A stretch of DNA of 55,025 nucleotides, taken from contig JAFZPN010000130.1 in the NCBI GenBank assembly GCA_017550315.1, forward strand, positions 1 through 55,025, read 5' to 3'. How positions within the stretch are numbered: position 1 is the first letter of the stretch; every line of letters begins with the position of its first letter. Below, in pieces: positions 27,469-52,056 of the stretch. Source of the stretch: Clostridia bacterium. Its GTDB lineage: Bacteria > Bacillota > Clostridia > Oscillospirales > CAG-272. The notes below the pieces were generated by a model, which made no database searches, was not told where the DNA came from, and saw only the letters and a program-made list of their open reading frames with translations. The position numbers were made by a program, and so were the translations under genes.

Positions 27469-27497
27469 TTGCAATCCCGGATGGAATGTGGTATAAT
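27469..27497 (+). promoter_or_regulatory. Promoter of the methyltransferase operon
   Basis: TTGCAA (27469-27474), 17 nt, TATAAT (27492-27497). A leader of about 215 nt follows, with two DtxR-like sites. Confidence 0.8.
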
Positions 27498-27506
27498 ACT
27501 CTCGCG

Positions 27507-27524
27507 GGTTAGCTTCCACTCACC
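27507..27524. promoter_or_regulatory. Degenerate DtxR-type operator
   Basis: GGTTAGCTTCCACTCACC, left half perfect and right half imperfect, beginning 10 nt after the -10 box, the same position as in the other units of the proposed regulon. Confidence 0.45.
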
Positions 27525-27662
27525 GACAAACGATATCGTTCCCTTTCCGCTCGCGGCCTCCTTCAGGACGAAGAGGTGATTTTGGAATCGGATGAGGCAG
27601 TTGTCCGTGCGGTGAGATGCGTTCCTTTGTCGGTCGGAATGACCGAATCTTTATTGCTTTCG

Positions 27663-27680
27663 GGTTAGCAAATACTAACG
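27663..27680. promoter_or_regulatory. DtxR-type operator in the leader
   Basis: GGTTAGCAAATACTAACG, an inverted repeat (GTTAG/CTAAC) that matches the motif before feoA, the ABC pair and the 52-kb operon. It lies 38 nt before the first gene. Confidence 0.6.
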
Positions 27681-27717
27681 AAGTTCAAACAGACTGTTTT
27701 CGGGAAGGTACAAGGAA

Positions 27718-28458
27718 ATGAACGGGAAAAACGGAGAAATCGGGAGAATCGAAAAGCGCGGCGGCGCTCCCGCGAACACGTCGCTCGATTGGCCTCGCAT
27801 CCGGCATCTGTTGAAGCTGGGGGTCATCGCGTCCCTCACGGTCCTCGCGGGCGACATGCTCCTCGGCTGGGGCGTGAGCGATCCTTCCGTCACGGAGCTG
27901 CCTGCTTTTCTCACGCGCTATCTTTCGGTATCCGACGGCAGGATCTTCGCGTCCGCCCTGCTCGGGCTGATTGGCATCCCGGTCGAGTGTCTGTGCTGGT
28001 TTGCCGTATATCGGATGATACGGCCGTATTCGGAAAAGGAGGCGCATACGTTCCGCGCCGGGATCGTCGGATGCCTCGCGTTCGGCGGCTGCGGCGTCCA
28101 CGTGCCGTGCTGCATGGCGGTCTGGCTGACGAAACGGTTTTACGCGTGCGATCCCGCGTCGGTCACGTGGGAAATGGGACGCTTCATCGGCTGGTTCCTG
28201 CTGCCCGCGACGGTGCTCTTTCTCGCGTTCTTTCTTCTCTCGATCATCGTCCAGATGCTGGCGTTTCTCCGGGGACACACGCCTCTCCCCCGCCGGTGCT
28301 GGGTGTTCTCCCTGCTGTTCGGTCTCGTCTTTGCCGTCCTCATGCGTCTCTGCGGAGATCACGCCCTGACGAACGCACTCTCAACGGGCTGGATCAGCGT
28401 CGGCAATCTGTGGATGACGGGCGGACTGCTTCTCACATCAAAGAAGGTGAGCGAATGA
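27718..28458 (+). CDS. DUF6796-like polytopic membrane protein
   Basis: 246-residue membrane protein with about six spans. It resembles the clostridial family with TVLAGDMLLGWGVSDP, SALLGLIGIPVECLCWFAVY and LAFGGCGVHVPCCMAVWL; that last Cys/His-rich stretch within the membrane (C-G-V-H-V-P-C-C) could bind metal, though this is speculation. First gene of an operon of three methyltransferases and a metallo-hydrolase, behind a promoter with two DtxR-type sites. The ribosome site (AAGGAA) is close and weak. The stop overlaps the next ATG. Confidence 0.72.
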   Translation: MNGKNGEIGRIEKRGGAPANTSLDWPRIRHLLKLGVIASLTVLAGDMLLGWGVSDPSVTELPAFLTRYLSVSDGRIFASALLGLIGIPVECLCWFAVYRMIRPYSEKEAHTFRAGIVGCLAFGGCGVHVPCCMAVWLTKRFYACDPASVTWEMGRFIGWFLLPATVLFLAFFLLSIIVQMLAFLRGHTPLPRRCWVFSLLFGLVFAVLMRLCGDHALTNALSTGWISVGNLWMTGGLLLTSKKVSE

Positions 28459-29057
28459 AAAAACGGACATGGGATCTCTACGCGCCGATCTACAAACAGG
28501 CGATGAAAGCGGATCAGAAGATCTACGACTTCATGTACGGCCGCATCCCCGCGGCGATCCGGGACAAGGAAGTGCTGGAGCTTGCCACCGGCCCCGGCCT
28601 GCTCGCGAAGCACGTCGCCCCGGCGACGAAGCGGATGATCGCGACGGACTACTCCGACGGCATGATCGCAGAGGCGAAAAAGGGAGACGGCCCCGAAAAC
28701 CTCACCTTCGAGAAAGCGGACGCCATGCAGCTGCCGTACAATGACGATTCCTTCGATGTCGTGCTGATCGCTAACGCCCTGCACATCGTCCCCGACCCGG
28801 AAAAGGTCCTCTCCGAGATCGACCGCGTTCTCCGGCCCGGCGGACTGCTCATCGCGCCGAACTTCGTGGAGCACAAGGAGACCCTCGGCAGCCGGATCTG
28901 GTCGGGCATCCTGCGGCTCGCGGGCGTGAAGTTCGAGCATCAGTGGAACGCGGAAGAATACGTCCGGTTTCTCGAAGCGAACGGCTGGCAGGTCACGTTC
29001 AGCCGGAAAATGGAGGCGCGGATCGCCATGCTGTACGCGGAGTGTGAAAGAAAATGA
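28455..29057 (+). CDS. Class I SAM-dependent methyltransferase
   Basis: 200-residue enzyme of the UbiE/Methyltransf_11 type. Motif I is VLELATGPGLLAKHVA near residue 42, the acidic motif II is MIATDYSDGMIAEA, then DAMQLPYNDDSFDVVLIANA and EIDRVLRPGGLLIAPNF. No signal or span. Coupled to the membrane-protein gene by an ATGA overlap. The substrate is unknown; small-molecule or lipid methylation is typical of this group. Confidence 0.88.
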   Translation: MKKRTWDLYAPIYKQAMKADQKIYDFMYGRIPAAIRDKEVLELATGPGLLAKHVAPATKRMIATDYSDGMIAEAKKGDGPENLTFEKADAMQLPYNDDSFDVVLIANALHIVPDPEKVLSEIDRVLRPGGLLIAPNFVEHKETLGSRIWSGILRLAGVKFEHQWNAEEYVRFLEANGWQVTFSRKMEARIAMLYAECERK

Positions 29058-29102
29058 GAACCAAAGGAATGTCCATGATGGAGCTCGCATTCGGAGGGTG
29101 AC

Positions 29103-29783
29103 ATGACAAGAAAAGAACAAATCAAAAGCGCGTACCGGCAGCTCGGCGGCAGCGCGAATTTCTACGACGGAATGATGACCTACTCCACCCTGCCGGGCAA
29201 GGCGATCTGCCGGCTTGTGTGGAACATGGACGGGGAGAAGAATCTCGAATATCTCACAAGGGCGCTCTCCGGCATCCCGGAGGATTTCCGGGGGAGTCTG
29301 CTCGAGGTCCCGGTCGGAACAGGGGTTTTGACCATGCCGGTCTACCGGGAACTGTCGGATGCGAAGATCACCTGCCTCGACTATTCGGCGGATATGATGG
29401 CGACGGCAGAGAAACGAGCCGAGTCTGCCGGGATCGGGAACATCGCGTTCGTGCAGGGAGACGTCGGCGCGCTGCCGTTTGAGGATGAATCCTTTGACAT
29501 CGTATTGTCTCTGAACGGCTTCCACGCCTTTCCGGACAAGGAGGCAGCGTATCGGGAAACATACCGCGTCCTGAAGCCCGGCGGGACCTTCTGCGGGTGC
29601 TTCTATATCCGGGGCGGATGCGGAAGGACGGACTGGTTCATCCGGCATCTGTATGTCCCGAAAGGATTCTTCACGCCGCCGTTTGAGACGGAAGAGAGCC
29701 TCCGGACGCGGCTCTGCGGGATGTACGCCGAGGCCGAGGTCTCGCGCGTCGAGGGAATGGGATGCTTTTTGTGCAGGAAGTGA
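29103..29783 (+). CDS. Class I SAM-dependent methyltransferase
   Basis: 226-residue methyltransferase. Motif I is SLLEVPVGTGVLTMPVY near residue 62 (Pro where Gly/Asp is common), then ITCLDYSADMMATAEKRAE, VQGDVGALPFEDESFDIVLS and TYRVLKPGGTFCGCFYIRGG. Cys-rich C-terminal region (GCFYIRGGCGRTD, MGCFLCRK). The second methyltransferase in the operon, not a close copy of the first. Confidence 0.86.
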   Translation: MTRKEQIKSAYRQLGGSANFYDGMMTYSTLPGKAICRLVWNMDGEKNLEYLTRALSGIPEDFRGSLLEVPVGTGVLTMPVYRELSDAKITCLDYSADMMATAEKRAESAGIGNIAFVQGDVGALPFEDESFDIVLSLNGFHAFPDKEAAYRETYRVLKPGGTFCGCFYIRGGCGRTDWFIRHLYVPKGFFTPPFETEESLRTRLCGMYAEAEVSRVEGMGCFLCRK

Positions 29784-29793
29784 GGAAGGAAAA

Positions 29794-30660
29794 ATGGCAC
29801 GAAAAGACTCGGAACATCAGAAGAAATCCATGAGCGCGCTGTTCCGCGGCAAGGCGATTTTCAAGCCGCTCTGCACGGGACACATCGACGGGCGCGTCGC
29901 CTGCGTGCGGGAATGGGTCGCGAACATCTTCTTTTACACGAAGAATGGCACGACCTTGATGATCGACGCGGGCTACAACTACGCGCGGCTCGCGGAAAAG
30001 ATGCGGTGGCTGGACATCGACCCGGCGTCGATTAAGCACATCCTCATCACCCATCAGGACACGGACCATGTCGGCGCGCTGGAAACGGACAGCGAACAGC
30101 TCTTCCGAAAAGCGACGGTGTATATCGGCGAGATCGAAAACCGCTATCTCACCGGGGAGGCGCGGCGGAAGGTGATCCACGGGCTGTACAAGCTGCCGCC
30201 GGTAAAGACGGAGAACAAAAAGGTGCTGCTGAAACACGGGCAGATCTTCCACATCGGAGACATCAAAATCGAATGCCTGCTCACCCCCGGCCACACCTGG
30301 GGACACATGGTCTATCTTATCGACGACAAATATCTCTTCACGGGCGACACGATCTGGTTCGGCGCGGACGGCGGGTACAGCTTCATCGCCACGCTCGCCG
30401 AGGACAACAAGCTCGCGGTACAGTCTCTCGAAAAGCTCGAAAAGAACCTCCGGGCGCGTCAGAGGCCGCTCAAGATCATCACCGGGCACACCGGCTGGAC
30501 GGACGATCTCGACTTCGCGTTCGCCCACCGGACGGAGCTTTGTAAGCCGTTTACGAAGAAATATGCCGATCCCGCGGCCCCCTACGACGGGTACGAGGAA
30601 TCGGACGATACGGAGGAGCGCGCGAGGACCAAGCCGCTCAGAAAGGTGGGAAACAAATGA
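29794..30660 (+). CDS. MBL-fold (metallo-beta-lactamase superfamily) hydrolase
   Basis: 288 residues, cytoplasmic. Metal motifs in order: ILITHQDTDHVGAL (an HxDxDH version of the usual HxHxDH, so one metal His is replaced by Asp), LTPGHTWGHMVYL, LFTGDTIWFGADGG and IITGHTGWTDD. The ATG at 29794 has GGAAGG upstream; the longer upstream open frame belongs to the methyltransferase gene in another frame. Substrate unknown. It ends in an ATGA overlap with the third methyltransferase. Confidence 0.85.
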   Translation: MARKDSEHQKKSMSALFRGKAIFKPLCTGHIDGRVACVREWVANIFFYTKNGTTLMIDAGYNYARLAEKMRWLDIDPASIKHILITHQDTDHVGALETDSEQLFRKATVYIGEIENRYLTGEARRKVIHGLYKLPPVKTENKKVLLKHGQIFHIGDIKIECLLTPGHTWGHMVYLIDDKYLFTGDTIWFGADGGYSFIATLAEDNKLAVQSLEKLEKNLRARQRPLKIITGHTGWTDDLDFAFAHRTELCKPFTKKYADPAAPYDGYEESDDTEERARTKPLRKVGNK

Positions 30661-31439
30661 AAGCGGAATACAAAAACTGGATGCCGAAGGGCATGATCCT
30701 CTCGTTCGCGGCCGCGGCTGTCGGATGCGTAGCGGCTGCGGCTGCCGTGGCTCTTCTCGTACCCGCCGGGCTGCCGAAAACTGTGCTTGTTGCTGTTCTG
30801 GCCCTGCTAGGTGCATTCTTCTGCGGGGTGAGTGTGTGGTCGATCTTCCTCTACCGCGCGTTCTCCTATAACGGCAGGCGGCAGATGTCACGGCAGATCA
30901 TCGAAGAGATCGCGGAGACGGTGAAGCTACCGGACGGAGGGTTCGGGCTCGACGTCGGATGCGGAAGCGGCGCGCTTGCCATCGCCTGCGCGAAGCGGAA
31001 TCCGCGCGCTTCCTTCCTCGGGATCGACCGCTGGGGCAAGGAATACGCCTCTTTCAGTCAGCCCCTCTGTGAGCGAAACGCCAAGGCCGAAGGCGTGAAA
31101 AACGTCTCCTTCGAGCGCGGTGACGCGACGGCACTTGCCTTCCCCGACGGATACTTTGACGCGGTGACGAGCAACTACGTCTACCACAACATCCCCGGCG
31201 ACCGGCAGGAATACCTGCTCGAAACCTTGCGCACGCTGAAAAAGGGCGGGACATTCGCGCTCCACGACATTTTCTCGAAAGCGAAATACGGGGACATGCA
31301 GGCCTTCGTTCGAAAGCTCAAAGACATGGGTTTTGAAGATGTGCGGCTGATCGACACAACGGACGGGAAGTTCATGACGAAGCGCGAGGCCGCGTGGATG
31401 GGGCTGTCCGGCTCTGCCTTACTGATCGGCAGAAAGTGA
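30657..31439 (+). CDS. Membrane-anchored class I SAM-dependent methyltransferase
   Basis: 260 residues: two N-terminal spans (about 12-35 and 41-65), then a cytoplasmic methyltransferase domain with GLDVGCGSGALAIACAKRNP near residue 100, FLGIDRWGKEY, ERGDATALAFPDGYFDAVTS and LRTLKKGGTFALHDIFS. The membrane anchor suggests a lipid or membrane-bound substrate. Last gene of the operon; its stop is followed by 70 nt before the convergent chromate-transporter genes, with no strong terminator seen. Confidence 0.85.
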   Translation: MKAEYKNWMPKGMILSFAAAAVGCVAAAAAVALLVPAGLPKTVLVAVLALLGAFFCGVSVWSIFLYRAFSYNGRRQMSRQIIEEIAETVKLPDGGFGLDVGCGSGALAIACAKRNPRASFLGIDRWGKEYASFSQPLCERNAKAEGVKNVSFERGDATALAFPDGYFDAVTSNYVYHNIPGDRQEYLLETLRTLKKGGTFALHDIFSKAKYGDMQAFVRKLKDMGFEDVRLIDTTDGKFMTKREAAWMGLSGSALLIGRK

Positions 31440-34465: not shown

Positions 34466-35032
34466 TCAATACGTCATTTTCGCGTCGATCAGCTGACAGA
34501 AGCGCATGTATTCGCCTTCGTAGTAGGTGTCGAACACGCCCGTCACCGTCACTTCCGTGCCCGCCGCGGGATAATCGTCCGGATAGACGTAATCCCCGGC
34601 GAGAACGAATTCCATTCCCTGCTGGCAGCAGGCCGTCGCGTCAGCGATGATCACCACATAGTAGTTCCTGTCCTCTCCCTCATAAACCTGAAACTGCCCG
34701 CTCATCCGCACGGTCTTGCCGAGATAGTCGTCGGGCAGCGCCATCATGTTGTACACCTCGGAATACACCATGGTCGCGCTCATCTTCGTAAGATCGACGT
34801 CCACCTCTCCCTTCGCCGCGGCGGGTGCTGTTATGGCCGCTCCTCCGCCGTTTCCGCTCGGGATCGCCTCCGGCTGTTCCCCGTTGTCGGCCTCCGCCAT
34901 CCCCGCGTTCAGCACGTCGCTGACGCTTGCGGTAGAACTGCCCCCTCTCCCTGCGGCGCCTTCCCGCAGAGCGCATCCGGTCCGCGCGCAAAGCATGACC
35001 AGACAGAGTAAATAAACGATCACTTTTTTCAT
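34466..35032 (-). CDS. Lipoprotein with OB-fold-like domain, zinc-operon type
   Basis: 188 residues from the ATG at 35032 (ATGA overlap with the permease gene). Signal peptide with a Cys at about 19-20 (CARTGCALR), a Gly/Ser/Ala linker, then a beta domain with ATMVYSEVYNMMALPDDYLG, KTVRMSGQFQVYEGE, ADATACCQQGMEFVLAG and TEVTVTGVFDTYYEGEYMRF. Homologous to the next gene. Similar lipoproteins accompany ZnuABC-type importers in Clostridia, as far as I recall. A CC pair may bind zinc. Confidence 0.72.
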   Translation of the reverse strand: MKKVIVYLLCLVMLCARTGCALREGAAGRGGSSTASVSDVLNAGMAEADNGEQPEAIPSGNGGGAAITAPAAAKGEVDVDLTKMSATMVYSEVYNMMALPDDYLGKTVRMSGQFQVYEGEDRNYYVVIIADATACCQQGMEFVLAGDYVYPDDYPAAGTEVTVTGVFDTYYEGEYMRFCQLIDAKMTY

Positions 35033-36583: not shown

Positions 36584-36593
36584 TCGTCCCCTC

Positions 36594-39840: not shown

Positions 39841-41652
39841 TCAGTCTGCCTCCTTTTCCGTCTTCCCGGCGGTGATCTTCCACTTCACCGCTTTGCCGTA
39901 ATCCTCCCACATCCGCGCGTAAAGCCCGCCGGCCTTCGCAAGCTCTTCGTGCGTACCCTGTTCCGAGACACGCCCTTCGTCCAGCACAATGATCCTGTCC
40001 GCACCCGTGACCGTGGAGAGCCGATGCGCGATCATCACGACCGTCCGCCCCCTCGTCAGCGCGCGAAGCGCTTTCTGGATCAGCGCCTCGTTTTCCGGAT
40101 CCGCAAATGCCGTCGCCTCGTCGAGCACAATGATCGGCGCGTCTTTGAGAATGGCGCGGGCGAGCGCGATCCGCTGCTGTTCTCCGCCCGAGAGATAGGT
40201 GCCCTTCGCTCCGATGACCGTGTCCATACCGTCCGGGAGTTTTGCGAGAATGTCGCCGCACTGCGCAGCCTTGAGCGCCGCTTCGACCTGTTCTCTCGAC
40301 GCATTCGGGCGGGCGGCGCGGACGTTTTCAAGGATCGAGGTTTTGAAGAGCCGGTTGTTCTGGAAGACGAACGCCACCTTGTCCATGAGGACATGCGGAT
40401 CGACGTCCTTCACGTTGACGCCGCCGACCAGCACCTCGCCGGACGAGGTGTCCCAGAACCGCGGGATCAGGCTTGCCGCCGTAGTCTTTCCTCCCCCGGA
40501 CGGGCCGACAAGCGCGACCGTCTCACCGGGGCTCGCCGCAAAGGAAACATGATCGAGCGCGGGTACGTCCGATCCTTCGTAGGTGAAGCTCACGTCGTGG
40601 AACACAATGCCGTTGTCCCGCGGAACCTTCGGATCCTTCGTTGTTTCGAGCACCGGCGCGTTCATGACCGTATCGATACGCCCAAGAGCAGTCTTAGCAA
40701 GCATCAGACCGGCTGACGCGAACATGATCCTTGCGAGCGCAGTAGAAACGATCGCCGAGAACACCGCGTAGAAAGCGAAATTCGTGATAAACCCGGCAAA
40801 ACTCCCTGCGGAAAGCGCCGACGGCGCGATCAGCAGTACGACGGGAACGAGAAAGATGAACACGCCTTCCGTAGCGGTCAGGTTGACCGACTGAGGAACG
40901 CAGCAGACTCCGCCCGTGTATTTTTCCGCCTTGCTGCTGTAATCCTCTATCGCCGCCTTGAACGCCTTGAAGGAATACACAGTCTGCTGAAAGACCTTGA
41001 CGACCGGGATCCCGCGCACATATTCCGTGCCCGCTTTGCTCATCACGTCCTGCGCCGTTTGGTATTCCATCATCAGAGCGGCGTTTTTGCCTCCCATCAT
41101 CGAATACAGGGTGACTACCGAAATGACCGCGGCGAGCAGGCACGCTCCGCCCATCCTCCAGTCGAAGACAAACATCAAAACGATCATGGCGACGAACATC
41201 GCCGCCGTTCCCACAATATCGGCAAGGTTGTGGGCGAGCAGCGTTTCGGTTTCCGCCGCACCACCGTCAAGACGGTTGCGAAGAAATCCCGAACCGTTGT
41301 TATCAAAGAAGCCGAGCGGTGTTTTCATCATATGCGCGACGCCTTGTTTGCGGATATTCGCGGCGGTGCGGAACGCCGCAAGGTGGGTACACATCAGCGC
41401 GGCAAAATAGACAAGGATACCGCCGAAGGAAAAGCCGAACGCCATCCAGCCATAGGTACCGATATTTGCCGCCTCGGTCCAGTTCGGCGCGACGGCGATC
41501 AGATCGCGGGCGACAAGCCAGATGCAGACGTAGGGAGCCATCCCGAGGATCATGGCGACAGCGGACAGCGCGAGCCCCAGAAAGGTCAGCCCTTTGTAAC
41601 TGCCCGCGTAGCCGAGCAGGGCTGTAAAGTCGTTTTGTTTTTTTTCTTTCAT
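39841..41652 (-). CDS. ABC transporter, fused permease/ATPase (IrtA/YbtP-like partner)
   Basis: 603 residues, first gene of the pair. Six spans, coupling-region MMKTPLGFFDNNGSGFLRNR, then ATPase motifs GPSGGGKTTAASL, YLSGGEQQRIALAR and IIVLDEATAFADPEN (Phe-Ala where Ser-Leu is usual before the D-loop). The ATG at 41652 has AAGGAA 7 nt upstream; the 36-residue upstream extension runs through the operator and is rejected. Controlled by a consensus promoter with two DtxR-type sites in a 100-nt leader that also holds a GCCCGC/GCGGGC hairpin. Confidence 0.86.
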   Translation of the reverse strand: MKEKKQNDFTALLGYAGSYKGLTFLGLALSAVAMILGMAPYVCIWLVARDLIAVAPNWTEAANIGTYGWMAFGFSFGGILVYFAALMCTHLAAFRTAANIRKQGVAHMMKTPLGFFDNNGSGFLRNRLDGGAAETETLLAHNLADIVGTAAMFVAMIVLMFVFDWRMGGACLLAAVISVVTLYSMMGGKNAALMMEYQTAQDVMSKAGTEYVRGIPVVKVFQQTVYSFKAFKAAIEDYSSKAEKYTGGVCCVPQSVNLTATEGVFIFLVPVVLLIAPSALSAGSFAGFITNFAFYAVFSAIVSTALARIMFASAGLMLAKTALGRIDTVMNAPVLETTKDPKVPRDNGIVFHDVSFTYEGSDVPALDHVSFAASPGETVALVGPSGGGKTTAASLIPRFWDTSSGEVLVGGVNVKDVDPHVLMDKVAFVFQNNRLFKTSILENVRAARPNASREQVEAALKAAQCGDILAKLPDGMDTVIGAKGTYLSGGEQQRIALARAILKDAPIIVLDEATAFADPENEALIQKALRALTRGRTVVMIAHRLSTVTGADRIIVLDEGRVSEQGTHEELAKAGGLYARMWEDYGKAVKWKITAGKTEKEAD

Positions 41653-41681: not shown

Positions 41682-41699
41682 GATTAGAGTAAGCTAACC
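41682..41699. promoter_or_regulatory. DtxR-type operator before the ABC pair
   Basis: GATTAGAGTAAGCTAACC: half-sites GATTAG and CTAACC around a 6-nt centre. Nearly the same as the sites at 47291, 47856 and 52003. Confidence 0.65.
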
Positions 41700-41745: not shown

Positions 41746-41763
41746 GATTAGCATTCGCAAACA
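41746..41763. promoter_or_regulatory. Degenerate DtxR-type operator at the -10 of the ABC promoter
   Basis: GATTAGCATTCGCAAACA: good left half, poor right half, directly abutting the -10 hexamer at 41763-41768. Confidence 0.45.
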
Positions 41764-41791
41764 TTATAGTTCCGGCATTCTTTCTTGTCAA
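41763..41791 (-). promoter_or_regulatory. Consensus promoter of the ABC pair
   Basis: Minus strand TTGACA (41791-41786), 17 nt, TATAAT (41768-41763). Divergent from the promoter at 41849-41877. Confidence 0.88.
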
Positions 41792-41848: not shown

Positions 41849-41877
41849 TTGACGCGGCAGAAAGTCCATGCTATAAT
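41849..41877 (+). promoter_or_regulatory. Promoter of the regulator-containing operon
   Basis: TTGACG (41849-41854), 17 nt, TATAAT (41872-41877). Confidence 0.85.
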
Positions 41878-41879
41878 CA

Positions 41880-41957
41880 GATAAGCACGAACTAACTGCA
41901 AAGCGGGGAGCTGTCGTGAGGATCCCGTCTCCGAACAGCGGTTAGCGAACACAAAAC
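41880..41957. promoter_or_regulatory. Two degenerate DtxR-type sites in the leader
   Basis: GATAAGCACGAACTAACT (41880-41897) starts 3 nt after the -10 box; GGTTAGCGAACACAAAAC (41940-41957) is a left half-site. Both are weaker than the feo sites, consistent with autoregulation of the DtxR-family gene at the end of this operon. Confidence 0.45.
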
Positions 41958-41979: not shown

Positions 41980-42291
41980 ATGAGCGTTGTGATCGTCGGC
42001 GGGAACGAGTGTATGACCCGGCAGTACCGGGATCTGTGCGCCGAATACCGCTGCAGTGCGAAAATCTATCCGAAGATGAAGAGCGGTCTGAAGGATTTCG
42101 GAAATCCGGACCTTTTGATCCTCTTCACGGACACCGTTTCTCACAAAATGGTTTATTCCGTCATGAGCCAACTGAAAAGTCATACAACAGTGCGACGTAG
42201 CCATTCGAGCTCCATGTCGGCGCTGCGGAAGGTGCTTGAAGAACAGACGCTTGGACGAATCGGTTTGAATAAGGAAGTGACACGAACATGA
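41980..42291 (+). CDS. DUF2325 family protein
   Basis: 103-residue protein with the DUF2325 pattern: MSVVIVGGNECMTRQYRDLC at the N-terminus, NPDLLILFTDTVSHKMVYSV in the middle and HSSSMSALRKVLEEQTLG at the end. The fold looks like a small Rossmann-type domain; function unknown. AGGAG lies 6 nt before the ATG. First gene of the operon that ends with the DtxR-family regulator; ATGA overlap with the next gene. Confidence 0.78.
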   Translation: MSVVIVGGNECMTRQYRDLCAEYRCSAKIYPKMKSGLKDFGNPDLLILFTDTVSHKMVYSVMSQLKSHTTVRRSHSSSMSALRKVLEEQTLGRIGLNKEVTRT

Positions 42292-42926
42292 AATACGCCG
42301 GAATGCCCGCGGGGATGTGGATCCTGTTTCACCGATCCTTCCGGGAAAAGCTGGTCTCGGTTCTCGGCTGTGATCGGGAGACCGCCGCGCGGACGGAAAA
42401 GAGAGCGCTCCCCAAGTACAAAGAGATCCTTGCGGGACTGCCGGAATTCGAGAAGGGCGACCGCTTCAAAATGAACATCGTGAACTGCGCCATGCTCGCG
42501 GCGTTCTATCTGAACATGGAGGGGGGACCGTCCGTCGGGCAGATGACGGATTATTACGAAAAAGCCATGATGACGGGGGCAATGAAATGGTTCTGCCGCC
42601 GGATGGGAAAGAAGAAATACACCCCCGCCGATGTGGACGGGATGCGGAAAACGGCGGCACTCCGCGCAGCGGACCGGAATCCCTTTTCCTGGAACATGGA
42701 GTTTCTGCCGTATGGGGACGGCAGCGGCTACGAGGCGCGGTTCACAAAATGCGGCATCTGCACGCTGATGACCGAGCTCGGCATCCGGGAGATCGTTCCG
42801 GCGATGTGCCGTCTCGACTACGCTATGAGCGAAGCAGGCGGGGCGGACGATTTCGTGCGGCAGTACACGCTCGCGTCGGGCGGTCCGTATTGTGACTGCG
42901 GATATAAGAAGAAAGAGGGAGAATGA
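42288..42926 (+). CDS. L-2-amino-thiazoline-4-carboxylic acid hydrolase-like protein
   Basis: 212-residue protein with the conserved pattern of the ATC-hydrolase family: an N-terminal helical part, YYEKAMMTGAMKWFCRR, then FTKCGICTLMTELGIREIVP, AMCRLDYAMSEAG and TLASGGPYCDCGYKKK. Conserved Cys and Asp residues suggest a thiol-based hydrolase. The family name comes from the enzyme that opens the thiazoline ring to S-carbamoyl-cysteine; whether this member does so is unknown. A second family member lies at 48060-48668, also behind a DtxR-type operator. Confidence 0.75.
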   Translation: MKYAGMPAGMWILFHRSFREKLVSVLGCDRETAARTEKRALPKYKEILAGLPEFEKGDRFKMNIVNCAMLAAFYLNMEGGPSVGQMTDYYEKAMMTGAMKWFCRRMGKKKYTPADVDGMRKTAALRAADRNPFSWNMEFLPYGDGSGYEARFTKCGICTLMTELGIREIVPAMCRLDYAMSEAGGADDFVRQYTLASGGPYCDCGYKKKEGE

Positions 42927-42927
42927 C

Positions 42928-43179
42928 ATGATCAAGACCACGCTGACAATCGAAGGCATGATGTGTCCCATGTGCGAAGCGCACGTCGCGGATGCTATCC
43001 GTAAAGTGGTACCGAACGCCAAAAAGGTCAAAGCGTCCAGACACAAAAAAGAAGCGTCGTTCCTGACGGATGCGCCGGTCGACGCGGAAACCCTGAAAGC
43101 CGCGATCAGCAAGACAGGCTACGACTGCCTGAGCGCGGAATCCGTTCCGGTTGAAAAGAAGGGCTGGTTCGGGCGATGA
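42928..43179 (+). CDS. Heavy-metal-associated (HMA) domain protein, CopZ-like
   Basis: 83-residue metallochaperone-like protein. IEGMMCPMCEAHVADAIRKV carries the CxxC metal site (MCPMC), and KAAISKTGYDCLS is the family's C-terminal helix. Usually a copper carrier; in this operon its metal could be different. ATGA overlap with the methyltransferase gene that follows. AGAGGGAG precedes the ATG. No CopA-type ATPase is seen nearby. Confidence 0.88.
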   Translation: MIKTTLTIEGMMCPMCEAHVADAIRKVVPNAKKVKASRHKKEASFLTDAPVDAETLKAAISKTGYDCLSAESVPVEKKGWFGR

Positions 43180-44012
43180 AAATCCGCATCGAGAAAAACA
43201 CCGTACAGGAGACGCTCGTCATCCCGCTGTTCGGGCGGGTGGTGTGCTCGGAACGCTTCCCCGCGCTGTTCTCCGACCCGGAGGCAAAGCGCATCTGCGA
43301 CTCGCTGGACTATGACTTCGAGGCGAAGCGGAAGAAGATGGAATCCCCCGCCGGACTGTTCGGGGCTCTCGAAGTAGCGCAGCGGCAATACGACCTGCTT
43401 TGTGAAGTGAAGGCATATCTGAAAGATCACCTGAAGGCCGCCGTCGTCAATCTCGGCTGCGGGCTGGACGACACGTTTTCGAAGGCGGACAACGGTCTGT
43501 GTCACGGTTACAACCTCGATCTGCCGGACGTGATCGCGGTGCGGAACGAACTTTTGCCCGCACGAGAACGGGAGGAAAACGTCCCCTGCGATCTGAACGA
43601 CTTTTCGTGGATGGACCGGATAGACGCATCGGACGGCGCGGTCTTCTTCGCCGCGGGCGTGTTTTACTATTTCAGGACGGAAGAGGTCAAAAAGCTCTTT
43701 CAGGCCATGGCGGAACGCTTCCCCGGCGCGGTGCTCGCGTTCGATTCCAGCAACCGGCGCGGAGCGAAGATGATGCGGAAGACCTGGCTCAAAGAGGCAG
43801 GGATCACGGATGTGAACGCCTTTTTCTCACTGGAAGACCCGGATGAGATCCGAAGCTGGAGCGGGAATTTCGCTTCCGTCAGCTCCAAAAGCTACATGCG
43901 CGGCTACCGGGATATCTACAAGGATGTCGGACTTTTTCACAAGCTCATGATCCGCTTCTGCGACGGGCTTGTGAACATGCGGATCGTGAAGATCGAATTC
44001 GGGAGAGGATGA
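43176..44012 (+). CDS. Class I methyltransferase, leucine-carboxyl-methyltransferase (LCM/TcmP)-like
   Basis: 278 residues. The N-terminal TLVIPLFGRVVCSERFPALF and AVVNLGCGLDDTFSKADNGL with YNLDLPDVIAVRNELLP match the LCM/PPM1-like family (TcmP and relatives), which methylate carboxylates in small molecules and proteins. Also FFAAGVFYYFRTEEVKKLFQ and LAFDSSNRRGAKMM. It fits as a tailoring enzyme. Sits between the HMA protein and the regulator in the DtxR operon. Confidence 0.8.
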   Translation: MKIRIEKNTVQETLVIPLFGRVVCSERFPALFSDPEAKRICDSLDYDFEAKRKKMESPAGLFGALEVAQRQYDLLCEVKAYLKDHLKAAVVNLGCGLDDTFSKADNGLCHGYNLDLPDVIAVRNELLPAREREENVPCDLNDFSWMDRIDASDGAVFFAAGVFYYFRTEEVKKLFQAMAERFPGAVLAFDSSNRRGAKMMRKTWLKEAGITDVNAFFSLEDPDEIRSWSGNFASVSSKSYMRGYRDIYKDVGLFHKLMIRFCDGLVNMRIVKIEFGRG

Positions 44013-44013
44013 C

Positions 44014-44208
44014 ATGAGGGGAATCCACGCCGTTTTGGTGACGCTCGGACTGTCTGCGGTGATGATGGCGGGCTTGTTCCTGATGTTGTGGGGAGCAGTG
44101 GCATTCAGCCGAAGGAGGTTTCATCATGGCTTTGCGGGAATCTGGGGAAATGTACCTCGAAGCGATCTATATCCTGTCGCAGACAAAGGCTTTGGTCCGT
44201 TCCGTTGA
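44014..44208 (+). CDS. Possible small single-span membrane protein overlapping the regulator gene
   Basis: 64-residue frame with one hydrophobic span (about 5-30: AVLVTLGLSAVMMAGLFLML) and GGGAGAGG before the ATG. Its last third overlaps the DtxR-family gene by 83 nt in another frame, so only the N-terminal part can be informative. It starts 1 nt after the methyltransferase stop. Uncertain. Confidence 0.3.
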   Translation: MRGIHAVLVTLGLSAVMMAGLFLMLWGAVAFSRRRFHHGFAGIWGNVPRSDLYPVADKGFGPFR

Positions 44209-44500
44209 CGTAAGCGAATACCGGAATTACTCAAAGCCCAGCGTAAGCCGCGCCATCGGGCTTTTGAAAAAAGGCGGGTACGTCTTGATGGGACGGGACG
44301 GCGGCCTGACGCTGACGGAGGCCGGACAAGCCGTAGTAAAGAAAATCTTTGATCGGCACACGACGCTGACGAATTTCCTGACGCTGCTCGGTGTGGATGA
44401 AACCATTGCCGAGAATGATGCCTGTCGCATGGAACACTTCATCAGCGACGAATCCTTTTACGCCATGAAAAACCTTGCAATGAAGATGGAGCAGAAGTAG
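44126..44500 (+). CDS. DtxR-family metal-dependent transcriptional regulator
   Basis: 124 residues: ALRESGEMYLEAIYILSQ at the N-terminus is the classic DtxR/MntR/IdeR start, then a winged HTH (VDVSEYRNYSKPSVSRAIGL, LKKGGYVLMGRDGGLTLTEA) and the dimerisation/metal domain (IFDRHTTLTNFLTLLGVDE, NDACRMEHFISDESFYAM) with Cys, Glu and His positioned as in metal site residues. No SH3 domain. AAGGAGG lies 7 nt before the ATG. The operators here resemble the DtxR/IdeR box more than an MntR box, so iron is favoured, but Mn is possible. Probably autoregulated. Confidence 0.9.
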   Translation: MALRESGEMYLEAIYILSQTKALVRSVDVSEYRNYSKPSVSRAIGLLKKGGYVLMGRDGGLTLTEAGQAVVKKIFDRHTTLTNFLTLLGVDETIAENDACRMEHFISDESFYAMKNLAMKMEQK

Positions 44501-44625: not shown

Positions 44626-44708
44626 CATGCTGAAACCTTACATGGTTTCAGCATGAGCCGGAAACGGTTTCAGCGTTTCCGGTCAATCTAAATCATTGAT
44701 TTAGATTG
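44626..44708. repeat. Three consecutive perfect inverted repeats
   Basis: IR1: 12-bp arms CATGCTGAAACC / GGTTTCAGCATG (44626-44655, 6-nt loop). IR2: 9-bp arms CCGGAAACG / CGTTTCCGG (44658-44682, 7-nt loop). IR3: 12-bp arms CAATCTAAATCA / TGATTTAGATTG (44684-44708, 1-nt centre). GGTTTCAGC occurs both in the IR1 arm and across the IR2 loop. IR3 covers the last codons and stop of the FeoB-associated gene. No T-run, so more than a simple terminator. Confidence 0.8.
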
Positions 44709-44939
44709 GGATTTGTATTGTCTGCCGGTATTCGCTTTCGCCGCGCGTGCGGTGCGGATGGCTTCGGCGTGAGCGGCTCTGCAGTGCGCGCAGTTGCCCG
44801 AGCAGCCGGAGCAGCCGCCGCATGTGACGGATTTTCCTTTCCGTTTGTCCCGGATCATGCCGACGATCACCAGCGCGACCAGAGCCGAGACGATCAACAG
44901 AACGAGAACTGTTGCGAGGTTTTCGGTGAGCCACAGCAT
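44688..44939 (-). CDS. FeoB-associated Cys-rich membrane protein
   Basis: 83 residues: one N-terminal span (about 5-28), a basic stretch (RDKRKGK), and the Cys cluster CGGCSGCSGNCAHC typical of the FeoB-associated family. Follows feoB by 33 nt on the same strand. The C-terminal tail QSKSMI and the stop are encoded within a perfect palindrome. Role in ferrous iron uptake is suspected for the family but not defined. Confidence 0.88.
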   Translation of the reverse strand: MLWLTENLATVLVLLIVSALVALVIVGMIRDKRKGKSVTCGGCSGCSGNCAHCRAAHAEAIRTARAAKANTGRQYKSQSKSMI

Positions 44940-44972: not shown

Positions 44973-47270
44973 TTATTTCGTGACCTTCACGTCTTTCGTA
45001 AATTCAGTCGATTCCTTGTAGGACTTGAACAGCTGGAAGCAGATCGCTGCGAGCAGAAGCAGTCCTATAATCAGACCGACAATATTCACGCCGCCCGCAA
45101 AGACCTTGCCGATCTGGAAGACGATGAGCGAGATCACATAGGCGAAGACGCACATATAGCCGATGGCGAACGCCGTCCACTTCGGGCTGTTCATTTCCCG
45201 CTTGATCGCGCCCATCGCGGCGAAGCAGGGAGCGCACAGCAGGTTGAAGAGCATGAACGCGAACGCGGCGAGCCTGCCGTGGCCGTCGGACGTGCGCTCA
45301 AAATCCGCGGCGACGCTTTCCCAGATCTGGTCGCCGTTTTCTTCCAGTTCTTCCTCGCCGTCCTGATCGTCGTAATTATACAGGACGCCGAAGGTGCCGA
45401 CGACGTTCTCCTTCGCGATGAGTCCGGTCACGGTCGCGACGGTCGGTTTCCACGAGCCGAAGCCCTGCGGCTTGAAGATCACGGACACCGGCTGCGCGAA
45501 CCGGGCGAGCAGAGAATCGTCGGAAGGATTGACCTCGTCGGGCTCAATACCCATGCGGTCGGCGACCTCCGCCTTGTAACTTTCGGTGACGAGGCTCTCG
45601 TCCTCATAGAGTTCCTCGACCATGCCGAATCTGCCGTTGACCGTTCCGAAGCCCTGAAGGAACCAGAGAACGATGGTGGAGAGCAGGATCACGGTGCCCG
45701 CCTTCTTGATAAAGGACCAGCCGCGCTCCCACATGGCGCGGAGGACGTTGACGACGGTCGGGGCGTGGTAGGCGGGCAGTTCCATGACGAAGGGGGCCGG
45801 GTCACCCGCGAAAAGTTTCGTCTTTTTCAGCATGATGCCGGAGATGACGATCGCCGCGACGCCGATGAAATAAGCCGAGGTCGCGATGAGGGAGGACCCG
45901 CCGAAGAGCGCGCCCGCGATCAGGCCGATGATGGGCATTTTCGCGCCGCAGGGCATGAAGCAGGTCGTCGTGATCGTCATGCGACGGTCGCGTTCGTTTT
46001 CGATGGTGCGGGACGCCATGACGCCGGGGATGCCGCAGCCCGTTCCGACGAGCATCGGGATGAAGGACTTGCCGGACAGCCCGAAGCGGCGGAAGATGCG
46101 GTCCATGATGAACGCAATGCGGGCCATGTATCCGCAGTCTTCAAGGATCGCGAGCAGCAGAAAGAGCACCAGCATCTGCGGCACAAAGCCGAGGACCGCA
46201 CCGACGCCGGAGACGATGCCGTCCGCGACAAGGCCGACGAGCCACGGAGCGACGCCCCAGCCCTCGAGCAGGGAACGCGATCCTTCCACCATCCATTCGC
46301 CGCTGAACACGTCGTTCGTCCAGTCGGTGAGGGTCGTACCGATGGCAATGCCGCCGTCCGGGATCGATTTGCCCATGGCGAGCGCATAGATGAGGAACAT
46401 CACAACGGCGAAAATGGGCAGCGCGAGCCAGCGATTGGTAACGATCCGGTCGATCTTGTCGGAAACCGTCGATCCCCCGACGTTTTTCTTCTTATAGCAC
46501 GCTTTGATGATGTCCGCGATGGCGAGATACCGCTCGTTCGTGATGATCGCCTCGGCGTCGTCGTCCATCTCCTTTTCCACCGCAGCGATGTCCGTCTCGA
46601 TGTGCTTCATTGTCGCCTCGGAGAGGTTCAGCGCCTCGATGGCCTTGGAGTCCCGCTCGAACAGCTTGACGGCGTACCACCGCTGCCGCTCCTCCGGCAG
46701 ATCGTGGAGCGCGGCCTCCTCGATGTGCGCGAGGGCGTGCTCGACCGGGCCGGAAAACTTGTGGGTCGGGACGGTCTTTCCGGTCTTAGCCGCTTCGACT
46801 GCCGCCTTCGCCGCCTCGTCGATGCCCGTACCTTTCAGCGCCGAGATCGGCACGACCGGACACCCGATCTGACGGGAGAGCTCCGTCATGTTGATCTTGT
46901 CACCGTTCTTTGTCACGACGTCCATCATATTGATCGCGCAGACGACCGGGATGCCGAGCTCCGTGAGCTGGGTCGTGAGATAGAGGTTCCGCTCGAGGTT
47001 CGAGCCGTCGATGATGTTGAGGATCGCGTCCGGTTTCTCGCCGATCAGATAGTTCCGCGCGACGACCTCTTCGAGGGTGTAGGGGGACAGGGAGTAAATG
47101 CCCGGCAGGTCGGTGACGGTCACGCCGTCGTATTTTTTGAGCTTGCCTTCCTTCTTTTCCACCGTGACGCCCGGCCAGTTCCCTACGAACTGGTTCGAGC
47201 CGGTGAGGGCGTTGAACAGGGTCGTTTTGCCGCTGTTCGGGTTGCCCGCAAGCGCGATGCGGATGTTCAT
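44973..47270 (-). CDS. feoB: Ferrous iron transport protein B (FeoB)
   Basis: 765-residue Fe(II) transporter. N-terminal GTPase with G1 AGNPNSGKTTLFNAL, G3 TDLPGIYSLSPYTLEE, G4 region INMMD and G5 SALKGTG; then a helical spacer and a membrane part with two Gate domains (MLVGTGCGIPGVMASRTIEN and CFMPCGAKMPIIG, with the conserved Cys). Full length. The start has AAAGGG upstream. Preceded by feoA (with a DtxR-type site between them) and followed by the FeoB-associated protein. Confidence 0.97.
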   Translation of the reverse strand: MNIRIALAGNPNSGKTTLFNALTGSNQFVGNWPGVTVEKKEGKLKKYDGVTVTDLPGIYSLSPYTLEEVVARNYLIGEKPDAILNIIDGSNLERNLYLTTQLTELGIPVVCAINMMDVVTKNGDKINMTELSRQIGCPVVPISALKGTGIDEAAKAAVEAAKTGKTVPTHKFSGPVEHALAHIEEAALHDLPEERQRWYAVKLFERDSKAIEALNLSEATMKHIETDIAAVEKEMDDDAEAIITNERYLAIADIIKACYKKKNVGGSTVSDKIDRIVTNRWLALPIFAVVMFLIYALAMGKSIPDGGIAIGTTLTDWTNDVFSGEWMVEGSRSLLEGWGVAPWLVGLVADGIVSGVGAVLGFVPQMLVLFLLLAILEDCGYMARIAFIMDRIFRRFGLSGKSFIPMLVGTGCGIPGVMASRTIENERDRRMTITTTCFMPCGAKMPIIGLIAGALFGGSSLIATSAYFIGVAAIVISGIMLKKTKLFAGDPAPFVMELPAYHAPTVVNVLRAMWERGWSFIKKAGTVILLSTIVLWFLQGFGTVNGRFGMVEELYEDESLVTESYKAEVADRMGIEPDEVNPSDDSLLARFAQPVSVIFKPQGFGSWKPTVATVTGLIAKENVVGTFGVLYNYDDQDGEEELEENGDQIWESVAADFERTSDGHGRLAAFAFMLFNLLCAPCFAAMGAIKREMNSPKWTAFAIGYMCVFAYVISLIVFQIGKVFAGGVNIVGLIIGLLLLAAICFQLFKSYKESTEFTKDVKVTK

Positions 47271-47290: not shown

Positions 47291-47308
47291 GATTAGATAT
47301 AGCTAACC
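47291..47308. promoter_or_regulatory. DtxR-type operator between feoA and feoB
   Basis: GATTAGATATAGCTAACC, a near-perfect match to the regulon motif, 20 nt before the feoB ATG. No good promoter is visible beside it, so it may act as a roadblock or mark a weak internal promoter. Confidence 0.65.
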
Positions 47309-47338: not shown

Positions 47339-47569
47339 TTACTTGACGGTTTCCACTTCGATCATGTCCGCGTCCGCCTTGCGGATGGACAGCTCGTAGC
47401 CGCGGACGGTGACTTCGACGGGATCCCCGAGGGGCGCGACCTTGCGGACATAGACCGTGACGCCTTTCGTGATGCCCATATCCATGATCCGGCGTTTAAC
47501 CGCGCCTTCTCCGTGCAGCTTGACGACGCGCACGGTCGATCCGATGGGGGTTTGTCTGAGTGTGTTCAT
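47339..47569 (-). CDS. feoA: Ferrous iron transport protein A (FeoA), second copy
   Basis: 76-residue SH3-like accessory protein of FeoB: LRQTPIGSTVRVVKLHGEG, RRIMDMGITKGVTVYVRKVA and LGDPVEVTVRGYELSIRKAD follow the FeoA pattern. Lies between the other feoA and feoB; AAGGAGG (47581-47575) precedes the ATG. Contains the full core domain, closer to canonical FeoA than the first copy. Confidence 0.92.
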   Translation of the reverse strand: MNTLRQTPIGSTVRVVKLHGEGAVKRRIMDMGITKGVTVYVRKVAPLGDPVEVTVRGYELSIRKADADMIEVETVK

Positions 47570-47620: not shown

Positions 47621-47836
47621 TCAGTCCACGAAAACCTTCTGAGCCAGGATTCTGTCGATCCCGACGCGGCTTTCCTTCACGTTGACGATGAGATTCCCGG
47701 CAAGTTCGGAAACAACGATCACCTCTCCTCCCGCGACAAATCCGAGGTTTTCGAGGTGCTTCTTGATCTCCGGCGTTCCGCTGATCCTACGGATGGTGTG
47801 CGGCTTGCCGTCGATCGCAAGCAGAAGCGGCATCAT
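47621..47836 (-). CDS. feoA: FeoA domain protein, first copy
   Basis: 71-residue FeoA-type SH3-like protein: HTIRRISGTPEIKKHLENLG, FVAGGEVIVVSELAGNLIVN and VKESRVGIDRILAQKV. First gene of the feo operon. AAAGGAGG lies 7 nt before the ATG. Paired small FeoA proteins are common in Clostridia. The leader carries two DtxR-type sites. Confidence 0.9.
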   Translation of the reverse strand: MMPLLLAIDGKPHTIRRISGTPEIKKHLENLGFVAGGEVIVVSELAGNLIVNVKESRVGIDRILAQKVFVD

Positions 47837-47855: not shown

Positions 47856-47873
47856 AATTAGTATAACCTAACC
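47856..47873. promoter_or_regulatory. DtxR-type operator in the feo leader
   Basis: AATTAGTATAACCTAACC, second site of the feo leader, 20 nt before the ATG and just ahead of the ribosome site. Confidence 0.6.
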
Positions 47874-47889: not shown

Positions 47890-47907
47890 GATTAGCTCGC
47901 GCTAATC
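47890..47907. promoter_or_regulatory. DtxR-type operator at the feo transcription start
   Basis: GATTAGCTCGCGCTAATC, the most symmetrical site in the window: 7-nt arms GATTAGC/GCTAATC around TCGC. It begins 9 nt after the -10 box and covers the start site. Confidence 0.75.
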
Positions 47908-47916: not shown

Positions 47917-47945
47917 ATTATATCCCCCTTGCTGGAGTTTGTCAA
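47917..47945 (-). promoter_or_regulatory. Consensus promoter of the feo operon
   Basis: Minus strand TTGACA (47945-47940), 17 nt, TATAAT (47922-47917), with the palindromic operator directly downstream. Confidence 0.92.
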
Positions 47946-50955: not shown

Positions 50956-50976
50956 CCTTGTCCCTCCTCTGTTCCG

Positions 50977-51456
50977 TCAGAAAATCAAAACGATCAGTCC
51001 CGCGACGACCGCCGCGCCCGCGATCCAGATCAGTGTCAGGATCCCGCGCTTTCTCAAGACCTGCGGCCATGTCTGCACAAAGGGCACCTCTTCCGTCCCC
51101 GGAATGACCCAGAACCGGCTGTGCCCGACCCAGAGCCGGTCGATCACGATGCCGTCATACCAGTTCATGGCCTCGAGAAACAAGAGCGCCTGCAGGTACG
51201 CGGGCCGAAAACTCCGGATCCCGTTCCAGAGCCCGACGATGAGCACGAGCGCCGCGAGCATCACGAGAAAGAACGGGATCATGAACCGCTTTCGTTTCCG
51301 CGCGACGGTCTCCCGGTCCGTCAGCCCGAGCGCGTAGACTCTCTCCTGTACGGGCTTCGGGTAGAAGTACAGTCCGTTCAGCGCGCTGTTTCCCACGGCG
51401 AGCTTCACCATGAGGGTGAATAAGGCGCAGAACAGGACGAGCTGCAAAAGGATCAT
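50977..51456 (-). CDS. Four-span membrane protein, paralogue of 49662-50159
   Basis: 159 residues, about four spans, with the same central loop YDGIVIDRLWVGHSRFWVIP then GTEEVP. The start is an ATG at 51456 right after the stop of the upstream gene; GGAGGG is about 10 nt upstream. Earlier open codons belong to that gene in another frame. Function unknown. Confidence 0.72.
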   Translation of the reverse strand: MILLQLVLFCALFTLMVKLAVGNSALNGLYFYPKPVQERVYALGLTDRETVARKRKRFMIPFFLVMLAALVLIVGLWNGIRSFRPAYLQALLFLEAMNWYDGIVIDRLWVGHSRFWVIPGTEEVPFVQTWPQVLRKRGILTLIWIAGAAVVAGLIVLIF

Positions 51457-51457
51457 C

Positions 51458-51961
51458 TCAGATCTGCCCTCCGATCCACATCGATAAAAGCGCCAAGAGT
51501 GCCGCAGCAAACGGGAAGACCGCAAGGCGGATCAGCTGCCCCTTCCGGTTGAAGCCAAACTGACGATACCCTTCACAGCCCTCCGTTTCCGGATAGAAAT
51601 GCTGAAAGAAATGCGATTTTGTCAGCAGCAGCCAGTCTAAACAGACGATATCGAATGCCTTCCAGAGATACAGGATGACGGCGAATCTCAGCCAGTGCTG
51701 CCAGAAGGAAAAACCTTGCCGAACGCCGTCATATCCGCCGTACACGAACACACCGACCATCGTAAGCAGGGAAAGAACGGAGAGCTTCCAGCCGAGCGCG
51801 TGCGCGCCGCGGAACCGCTCCGGATGCTCCGCGGCAGCGGCCTGGATGTCCTTCGGCGCAGTGGTAAACAGCTTGTTGTTCTGGATCAACCCCACAGCGG
51901 CATAAAGCAGGACGCATACCGCGAGGATGAAGGCCAGGGCCAGAAGAATTGTCAGTAGCAT
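51458..51961 (-). CDS. Four-span membrane protein, distant paralogue, first gene of the DtxR-operator operon
   Basis: 167 residues, about four spans. The loop AFDIVCLDWLLLTKSHFFQH then PETEG aligns with the loops of the two paralogues (D, WxxxxxxxF, P-x-T-E). Directly downstream of a consensus promoter and a DtxR-type site. First of six co-directional genes. Function unknown. Confidence 0.7.
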   Translation of the reverse strand: MLLTILLALAFILAVCVLLYAAVGLIQNNKLFTTAPKDIQAAAAEHPERFRGAHALGWKLSVLSLLTMVGVFVYGGYDGVRQGFSFWQHWLRFAVILYLWKAFDIVCLDWLLLTKSHFFQHFYPETEGCEGYRQFGFNRKGQLIRLAVFPFAAALLALLSMWIGGQI

Positions 51962-52002
51962 GGGACGTTTTCCTCCTCACGATTACAAGATGCAAGGGCA
52001 AT

Positions 52003-52020
52003 TATTAGACTTAGCTAACC
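52003..52020. promoter_or_regulatory. DtxR-type operator of the six-gene operon
   Basis: TATTAGACTTAGCTAACC, beginning 8 nt after the -10 box. Close to the feoB (47291) and ABC (41682) sites. Confidence 0.65.
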
Positions 52021-52027
52021 ACGAACC

Positions 52028-52056
52028 ATTATACACCCCGCTTCCCCGGCTGTCAA
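52028..52056 (-). promoter_or_regulatory. Consensus promoter of the six-gene operon
   Basis: Minus strand TTGACA (52056-52051), 17 nt, TATAAT (52033-52028). A further motif-like sequence GGTAACCTTAGGCTAATC is at 52115-52132, upstream of the -35. Confidence 0.9.

Follow-up and report, generated by a model that had tools for sequence, protein, structure and literature searches.

A single-dimer palindrome as the probable operator of a DtxR/MntR-family iron regulon around feoAAB in an Oscillospirales genome

Contig JAFZPN010000130.1 of a Clostridia bacterium (assembly GCA_017550315.1; Oscillospirales, CAG-272), whose whole 55,025 nucleotides (nt) are referred to here as the window, raises the question of which protein reads an 18-bp palindrome that recurs at the promoters of five of its transcription units. 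One of these units encodes the Fe2+ uptake system feoAAB, another ends with the gene of a 124-residue regulator of the DtxR/MntR family, and many of the remaining genes have no known iron role. We consider it highly probable that the palindrome is the operator of this regulator, which would repress the five units as a single Fe2+-dependent dimer and free them at iron shortage. What was computed, and carries this view, are the sites, their placement at promoters, their conservation, their link to feo and to the regulator gene, and the metal-ligand residues of the protein.

A sequence-only reading of the window had placed nine copies of an imperfect palindrome with a spacer of four or five bases. 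All nine are present. Compared with the pattern GRTTAGN6CTAAYC, the copies at 41682..41699, 47291..47308 and 47890..47907 are exact, those at 27507..27524, 27663..27680, 47856..47873 and 52003..52020 have one mismatch, and those at 41746..41763 and 41880..41897 have two. The six bases between GRTTAG and CTAAYC correspond to the N4 class of that reading with a 7-base arm; this class stands, while the N5 class is absent from the window. Seven copies with at most one mismatch compare with a mean of 0.12 (maximum 2) in 200 windows simulated with an order-1 model and 0.015 (maximum 1) in 200 windows of an order-3 model. All seven were found with an arm gap of 6, and gaps of 2-5 and 7-12 gave none. 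The same control was run on 48 contigs that carry relatives of the regulator, obtained from a scan of species-representative genomes and mostly from rumen and gut Clostridia by their titles; a gap of 6 gave 42 matches and each other gap (2-5, 7-12) between 0 and 2.

A position matrix was then derived from relatives alone (155 distinct sites, none from the window) and run over all window positions. The nine sites took ranks 1-9 (14.5-23.0 bits), followed by two further weak copies, one upstream of the unit 5 promoter (52115..52132, rank 10, 11.9 bits) and one close to the start of the DUF2325 gene (41940..41957, rank 11, 9.9 bits). Ten positions reached at least 10 bits, compared with a mean of 0.083 in 60 simulated windows. 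The logo of 165 sites reads GGTTAGC-N4-GCTAACC; its central N4 is unconstrained, and it shows no overlapping second copy. These 165 sites comprise 116 from the genus, 42 from the regulator contigs and seven from the window, all from loci picked for holding a site or a regulator.

All five units have promoters that deviate from TTGACA-17-TATAAT in two positions at most, with a site on the -10 box or no more than 9 nt from it. For unit 1 (TTGCAA-17-TATAAT, 27469..27497, plus strand) the copy at 27507 lies 9 nt past the -10, and for unit 2 (TTGACA-17-TATAAT, 41763..41791, minus) the copy at 41746 starts on its final base, the exact copy at 41682 being in the leader. The copy at 41880 lies 2 nt past the -10 of unit 3 (TTGACG-17-TATAAT, 41849..41877, plus), that at 47890 lies 9 nt past that of unit 4 (TTGACA-17-TATAAT, 47917..47945, minus) and that at 52003 lies 7 nt past that of unit 5 (TTGACA-17-TATAAT, 52028..52056, minus). 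A copy within about 10 nt of each -10 box, or abutting it, had been proposed and is borne out. This is where a repressor blocks RNA polymerase; because the sites are at or downstream of the -10, repression is favored over activation. Of the 165 sites, 62 start between 0 and 11 nt past a promoter-like -10, compared with 21 for the rest of the searched range taken as a whole. Nor is the motif equally common inside genes, a possibility that the sequence-only reading had left to be checked: 20 of the 165 sites lie in called open reading frames (ORFs), compared with 20089 of 24200 random positions of the same stretches. Both counts rely on a simple gene caller that at times places starts too far upstream, and site 41682 was counted as inside an ORF.

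One test was free of motif selection. Homologues were chosen by protein similarity alone, and a box with at most one mismatch was sought within 350 nt upstream. Among the DUF2325 homologues of the genus, 11 of 14 have such a box, compared with 8 of 2800 shuffled upstream regions; the window gene is among the 11 by virtue of the exact 41682 box, which belongs to the divergent ABC unit, whereas its own boxes each have two mismatches. FeoA orthologues with more than 70% identity have a box in 7 of 12 cases, and FeoA-FeoB fusions (41-48% identity; one from the own genome and nine from congeners), which serve as negative control, in 0 of 10. One FeoA match, a fragment at a contig end, was excluded from both counts. 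Homologues of methyltransferase C have a box within 350 nt in only two of six cases, because in the others the gene is internal to a gene run.

The regulon is conserved in relatives. In the 48 regulator contigs, the box is found on 15 of the 16 that bear feo and on none of the 32 others (Fisher p 1.5e-11), five of these 32 being shorter than 7 kb so that feo could be beyond their ends. Many Lachnospiraceae contigs have feoAAB divergent from the regulator gene, and the region separating the two holds two or three boxes spaced 29-36 bp apart. Three boxes with this spacing occur upstream of feo at L065, L067, L068, L070, L074, L084 and L085. Since the spacing is about three helical turns, it suggests cooperating dimers. 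In the window's family, exact GGTTAGN6CTAACC gave 113 matches in 78 of 196 genomes and the reversed pattern 15 (a control total added up by eye). A regulator match (E 1e-15) is present in 178 of the 196, and an exact box 105-173 nt upstream of it was read by eye in at least eight genomes of six genera.

Within the genus (25 genomes, at most one mismatch), boxes precede feoA, feoB, DUF2325, heavy-metal-associated (HMA) domain, DUF6796 and methyltransferase genes, ABC pairs and the unit 5 membrane protein gene, as well as DUF3793-flavodoxin pairs in three congeners, ZIP transporter genes in two, and a TetR-ABC-ECF (energy-coupling factor) cluster with Trep_Strep and CbiQ. The feo genes are the conserved core of the regulon. 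The clusters at L128 and L158 (G008:C26, G021:C372) contain boxed TetR, Trep_Strep (an MptD-type ECF S component) and CbiQ genes, L128 also an exporter-fold ABC pair; they look like an iron-regulated ECF transporter. Iron shortage is typically marked by the replacement of ferredoxin with flavodoxin. On a Subdoligranulum variabile plasmid (L199, OY725880.1, 10492-11629), two boxes stand directly before a DUF3793-flavodoxin pair, and a relative of the regulator (47%) is encoded 4 kb from them. In a Faecalibacterium study, feoAABC and flavodoxin rise together, which an excerpt of that paper notes along with iron shortage (PMC10781979).

The regulon had been described as five units in the window. 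All five are confirmed, but five is a minimum, since a ZIP promoter elsewhere in the genome and the congener targets add to it. The draft assembly of the own genome has 231 contigs, totals 3.5 Mb and is 85% complete; the window is its contig C175. Under the looser pattern RNTTAGN6CTAAYC, every exact match of the genome is inside the window; four places outside have one mismatch to it, three of which have two to GRTTAGN6CTAAYC. They are inside an ORF (C100), before a ZIP metal-transporter gene (C94) and intergenic or near an ORF start (C103, C177). On C94, the box-like site at 60090 lies between a -10-like TAGAAT and the ZIP gene. The idea of a regulon confined to the window was dropped.

The box had been likened to that of DtxR/IdeR, and the likeness holds for one half of it only. 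According to an excerpt of PMC8464063, the 19-bp IdeR box is bound as two dimers, and a 14-bp one-dimer footprint, TTAGGNNNNCCTAA, is reported; the latter and the box here have the same TTAG-N6-CTAA geometry. Each half of the 19-bp double box TTAGGTTAGSCTAACCTAA has GGTTAG as its inner portion. That double box is not matched here: instead of two overlapping copies, there is one TTAG-N6-CTAA, with GR on its outer and C on its inner side. A further difference from the DtxR/IdeR regulon is that uncharacterized genes are among the targets. Because its geometry equals that of the one-dimer footprint, the box, judged by its sequence, is half a DtxR box and fits one dimer. A second parallel is EqbA of Streptococcus equi, as described in an excerpt of PMC3672683. 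EqbA is a short DtxR-like repressor encoded in an iron-acquisition cluster with exporter-fold ABC proteins, and its operator contains GTTAGATGTATCTAAC, a palindrome with a 6-base gap that includes GTTAG-N6-CTAAC. Its gel shift depends on the palindrome containing TTAG-N6-CTAA and was obtained with Fe2+, Zn2+ and, less so, Mn2+. In the same excerpt, EqbA shares the DtxR-type Cys but has Asn where DtxR has Met, and it acts on one 36-bp palindrome at a single cluster with nonribosomal peptide synthetase (NRPS) genes, in contrast to the many dispersed 18-bp operators here. No NRPS gene was noticed among the boxed genes.

Binding by the window regulator, Fe2+ as the metal and repression are what we infer from these sequences. 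One Fe2+-loaded dimer would grip a single GRTTAGC-N4-GCTAAYC (core TTAG-N6-CTAA) over or just past the -10 and shut out RNA polymerase. At iron shortage, the metal would leave and the dimer would release the operator, upon which the five units, probably together with the ZIP transporter elsewhere in the genome, would be expressed. The expressed set would consist of feoAAB for Fe2+ import, the exporter-fold ABC pair and the operon that ends in the regulator gene, giving negative feedback, along with the methyltransferases, the metallo-hydrolase and the ATC_hydrolase, HMA, DUF6796 and DUF2325 proteins.

The strongest competitor concerns which copy of the regulator acts. A second DtxR-family gene, on contig C155, adjoins serS and encodes a protein 75% identical to the window regulator. 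The boxes could belong mainly to this paralogue as the ancestral regulator of the genus; the window copy would then be a duplicate that is diverging and has a more restricted role (another metal or another affinity), or a feedback modulator. We give this a substantial chance, somewhat short of even. Congeners G020, G021 and G022 have one regulator match each, yet contain 4, 18 and 11 boxes. The matches of G020 and G022 adjoin serS (L024, L022), and that of G021 is L048, which ends in serS. In a tree calculated without several rows (duplicates, fragments or distant), the window copy is the longest branch of a seven-row clade (0.27 vs 0.03-0.08), the six other rows being serS-linked copies with the own C155 protein among them. 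The single-copy congeners with boxes and the long branch make it probable that the boxes are under the regulator ancestral to the genus, with the window copy as a duplicate that joined the regulon. As the recognition region of both copies is near-identical, both may bind. On the other hand, the genomes of G020-G022 are 78-93% complete and a second copy may be missing from them, other genera of the family have the regulator beside a site and in Lachnospiraceae also beside feo, and the window copy retains all metal ligands and sits in a boxed operon. The proposal that the locus encodes the regulator of its own sites is thus retained for a single regulon with a DtxR-type box, but the window copy is not the sole candidate.

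Besides the single-copy congeners and the shared recognition region, several observations weigh against control of the boxes by the window regulator or against the box as such. The closest relatives of the window regulator (L048-L053) adjoin serS, not feo, and no site is present on their contigs. On plasmid stretches of three cultured relatives, Lachnospira eligens, Vescimonas and Pusillibacter, no box (at most two mismatches) was found within 7 kb of a regulator relative; no feo is annotated within 7 kb on the same three stretches either, in an incomplete PLSDB annotation. A second Feo system of the own genome, the C123 fusion (G000:C123:21315-21530, L242; open frame of 804 amino acids), has no box within 350 nt upstream and may answer to another signal. 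With three mismatches allowed, the motif is not enriched in the window (30 seen, 35.4 expected); the signal resides in the good copies. The genus scan gave 137 matches (summed by eye), compared with 79 for the reversed control, and as this control scores high, a share of the weak sites is chance. The surroundings of 116 matches outside the own genome were examined; six were left out as likely chance, being A+T-rich or isolated (G004:C113, G005:C12, G010:C300, G012:C376, G013:C86, G022:C48), seven in G017, G019 and G024 were left out with their places not listed, and the own genome holds the other eight.

As to the metal, Fe2+ is the likely signal of the regulator, judging from its Met and Cys ligands together with the residue assignment and the operator given in the EqbA paper. 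A regulator of the MntR type that senses Mn2+, and hence a manganese or mixed-metal regulon, is improbable. Such a view draws on the size of the protein and on its best scores, which are to MntR models and structures. Its two Pfam domains (Fe_dep_repress, 42.1 bits, and Fe_dep_repr_C, 49.8 bits; cut-offs of 26 and 27 passed) fill residues 3-120 of 124 and leave no third, SH3-like domain as in DtxR/IdeR, the two-domain architecture being that of Bacillus subtilis MntR. The closest solved structures are MntR, with 1on2 first; query and 1on2 read EMY where the other four chains listed read EDY. ZIP transporters also belong to the regulon. However, the NCBIfam MntR equivalog cut-offs are not reached (76.2 of 138 and 78.5 of 153 bits), nor is that of DtxR (36.9 of 290 bits), and feo and flavodoxin are iron genes. 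In the alignments, the regulator has Met and Cys, as DtxR/IdeR have at the metal-selectivity positions, where MntR has Asp8 and Glu99. Met9 is kept in 53 of 55 relatives, and Glu12, His78, Cys100, Glu103 and His104 in all 55 (at least 45% identity, out of 69 rows, after removal of eight duplicate rows). Iron had been named as the probable metal, and this conservation agrees with it at the level of sequence. The streptococcal regulators SloR and ScaR use 6-6-6 operators with 6-base arms and a 6-base gap, like the box here, but with A+T-rich arms and a response to Mn2+. Cys and Met are the Fe-responsive residues of DtxR, according to an excerpt of the EqbA paper (PMC3672683). A more distant DtxR-family protein (G008:C46:88201-88551; L044, L126; 48%) has Asp instead of Met at the selectivity position; a box lies upstream of its gene, which is near DUF6796 and methyltransferase genes.

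It is very unlikely that another regulator, of the Fur type or an unseen protein, binds the palindrome and that the DtxR-family gene is a bystander in its operon. The genome has one FUR-family protein (C76), which such a view could invoke, but many contigs combine the sites with the DtxR-feo arrangement. The sites also lie a short way upstream of the regulator gene in the eight or more genomes mentioned above, and they have the core of the IdeR one-dimer footprint and of the EqbA operator. The Fur regulon of Clostridioides difficile is likewise an iron regulon in Clostridia, and feo is a Fur target there; the difference is that the evidence here points to a DtxR-family, not a Fur-family, regulator. 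Flavodoxin of C. difficile is tied to iron shortage, as cited in an excerpt of PMC10781979. Repression of feo by a DtxR-family protein is already a known kind of control. Finally, the lack of enrichment at three mismatches could be taken to mean that the palindromes are chance or a functionless structural repeat, the probability of which is next to nil, as box conservation upstream of homologous genes refutes it and the simulations, gap controls, feo co-occurrence, family scan, ORF avoidance and relatives' matrix all speak against it.

The genes under the boxes are as follows. Unit 1 (plus strand) encodes a DUF6796 membrane protein (27718..28458, PF20599), a UbiE-like methyltransferase identified with Pfam (MTaseA, 28440..29057, exact start unsure), an S-adenosylmethionine (SAM) methyltransferase (MTaseB, 29103..29783), a metallo-beta-lactamase-fold (MBL) hydrolase (29791..30660, searched as the longer ORF 29653-30660) and a further SAM methyltransferase (methyltransferase C, MTaseC, 30657..31439) with N-terminal membrane helices recognized by eye. 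Two chromate-transporter genes (PF02417; 31510-32648, minus) adjoin this unit and have no box. Unit 2 (minus) encodes two exporter-fold ABC half-transporters, ABC1 (39841..41652) and ABC2 (38098..39840). General exporter-fold models match both, none of the 25 models listed for each reaching its cut-off; metal-chelate import of the IrtAB/YbtPQ type is a candidate function. Within the island there is also a ZnuABC-like metal transporter operon (35029-37610, minus; labeled from its sequence) without a box, with a gene for a small protein upstream of it (37668-37979).

Unit 3 (plus) encodes a DUF2325 protein (41980..42291, PF10087), an ATC_hydrolase-family protein (42288..42926, PF14196), an HMA domain protein (42928..43179, PF00403), an LCM-family methyltransferase (43176..44012, PF04072) and the regulator (44126..44500, PF01325 and PF02742), which closes the unit 41980-44500 in the last position, as had been noted. 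Unit 4 (minus) encodes FeoA2, the second FeoA protein (47621..47836, PF04023), FeoA1 (47339..47569), FeoB (44973..47270) and a FeoB-associated Cys-rich membrane protein (44688..44939). The exact box between feoA and feoB (47291-47308) recurs at the same place in congener loci L127, L146, L160, L166, L190 and L184; no promoter-like pair was found at it in the window, and an internal promoter or a transcription roadblock is possible. Unit 5 (minus) encodes two small membrane proteins (51458-51961, 50977-51525) and an alpha/beta-hydrolase-like protein (50188-50955), which matched no Pfam family and owe these labels to a reading of the sequence.

The regulon had been described as joining feo with genes of no known iron role. 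Many of these genes travel together and share the box, as seen from the gene runs of two genomes and from boxed LCM loci. In congener G011, a same-strand run under a box (8141) consists of an unknown gene, ATC, HMA, LCM, MTaseB, MBL, MTaseC, a methyltransferase and the unit 5 membrane protein; it holds homologues of seven window genes and one more methyltransferase, and ends directly upstream of the boxes and genes of feoA-feoA-feoB. A colinear run, ABC1-ABC2-methyltransferase-MBL-methyltransferase-LCM-ATC, is found in G263 from another Clostridia family. A relative of the LCM protein (E 1e-30) occurs in 16 of 391 genomes of the class, the own genome included. We compared nine LCM loci outside the genus, from eight genomes and with identities of 44% or more. 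A box with at most one mismatch lies just upstream of the LCM-holding run in L262, L265 and L270. In L266, a box of this quality adjoins another gene, and LCM itself is preceded only by a copy with two mismatches. In L263, the ABC1-to-ATC run likewise follows a two-mismatch copy, and no box was found at the LCM loci L264, L267, L268 and L269.

We tentatively propose, as an idea that is more apt to fail than to hold, that the box marks one conserved, undescribed iron-scarcity pathway, which may produce, modify or transport a methylated small molecule that binds iron, with no NRPS involved. Its core would be between two and four SAM methyltransferases, one of them from the LCM family, the MBL-fold hydrolase and the ATC_hydrolase protein, with the HMA protein, DUF6796 and a dedicated exporter-fold ABC pair as accessories. 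In the window, these genes are divided among separate boxed units.

Among the open-access literature matches listed, we found no paper on the box or the regulon in Clostridia. As far as these searches show, two points are new: the use, across gut Clostridia, of the single-dimer box as standard operator by a two-domain regulator of the Met/Cys type, and the set of genes that make up the regulon. To our knowledge, iron control in uncultured gut and rumen Clostridia has been little studied. With a defined and conserved operator, candidate iron-shortage genes can be read directly from the genomes of these species, and a box at uncharacterized genes would mark them as part of the iron-shortage response. 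The DUF2325, DUF6796 and ATC_hydrolase proteins and the LCM-type methyltransferases of this group thereby gain a first testable role, and the paralogue pair offers a natural case of a duplicated metal sensor. Together, the boxed genes point to a possible undescribed pathway that is expressed alongside Fe2+ uptake.

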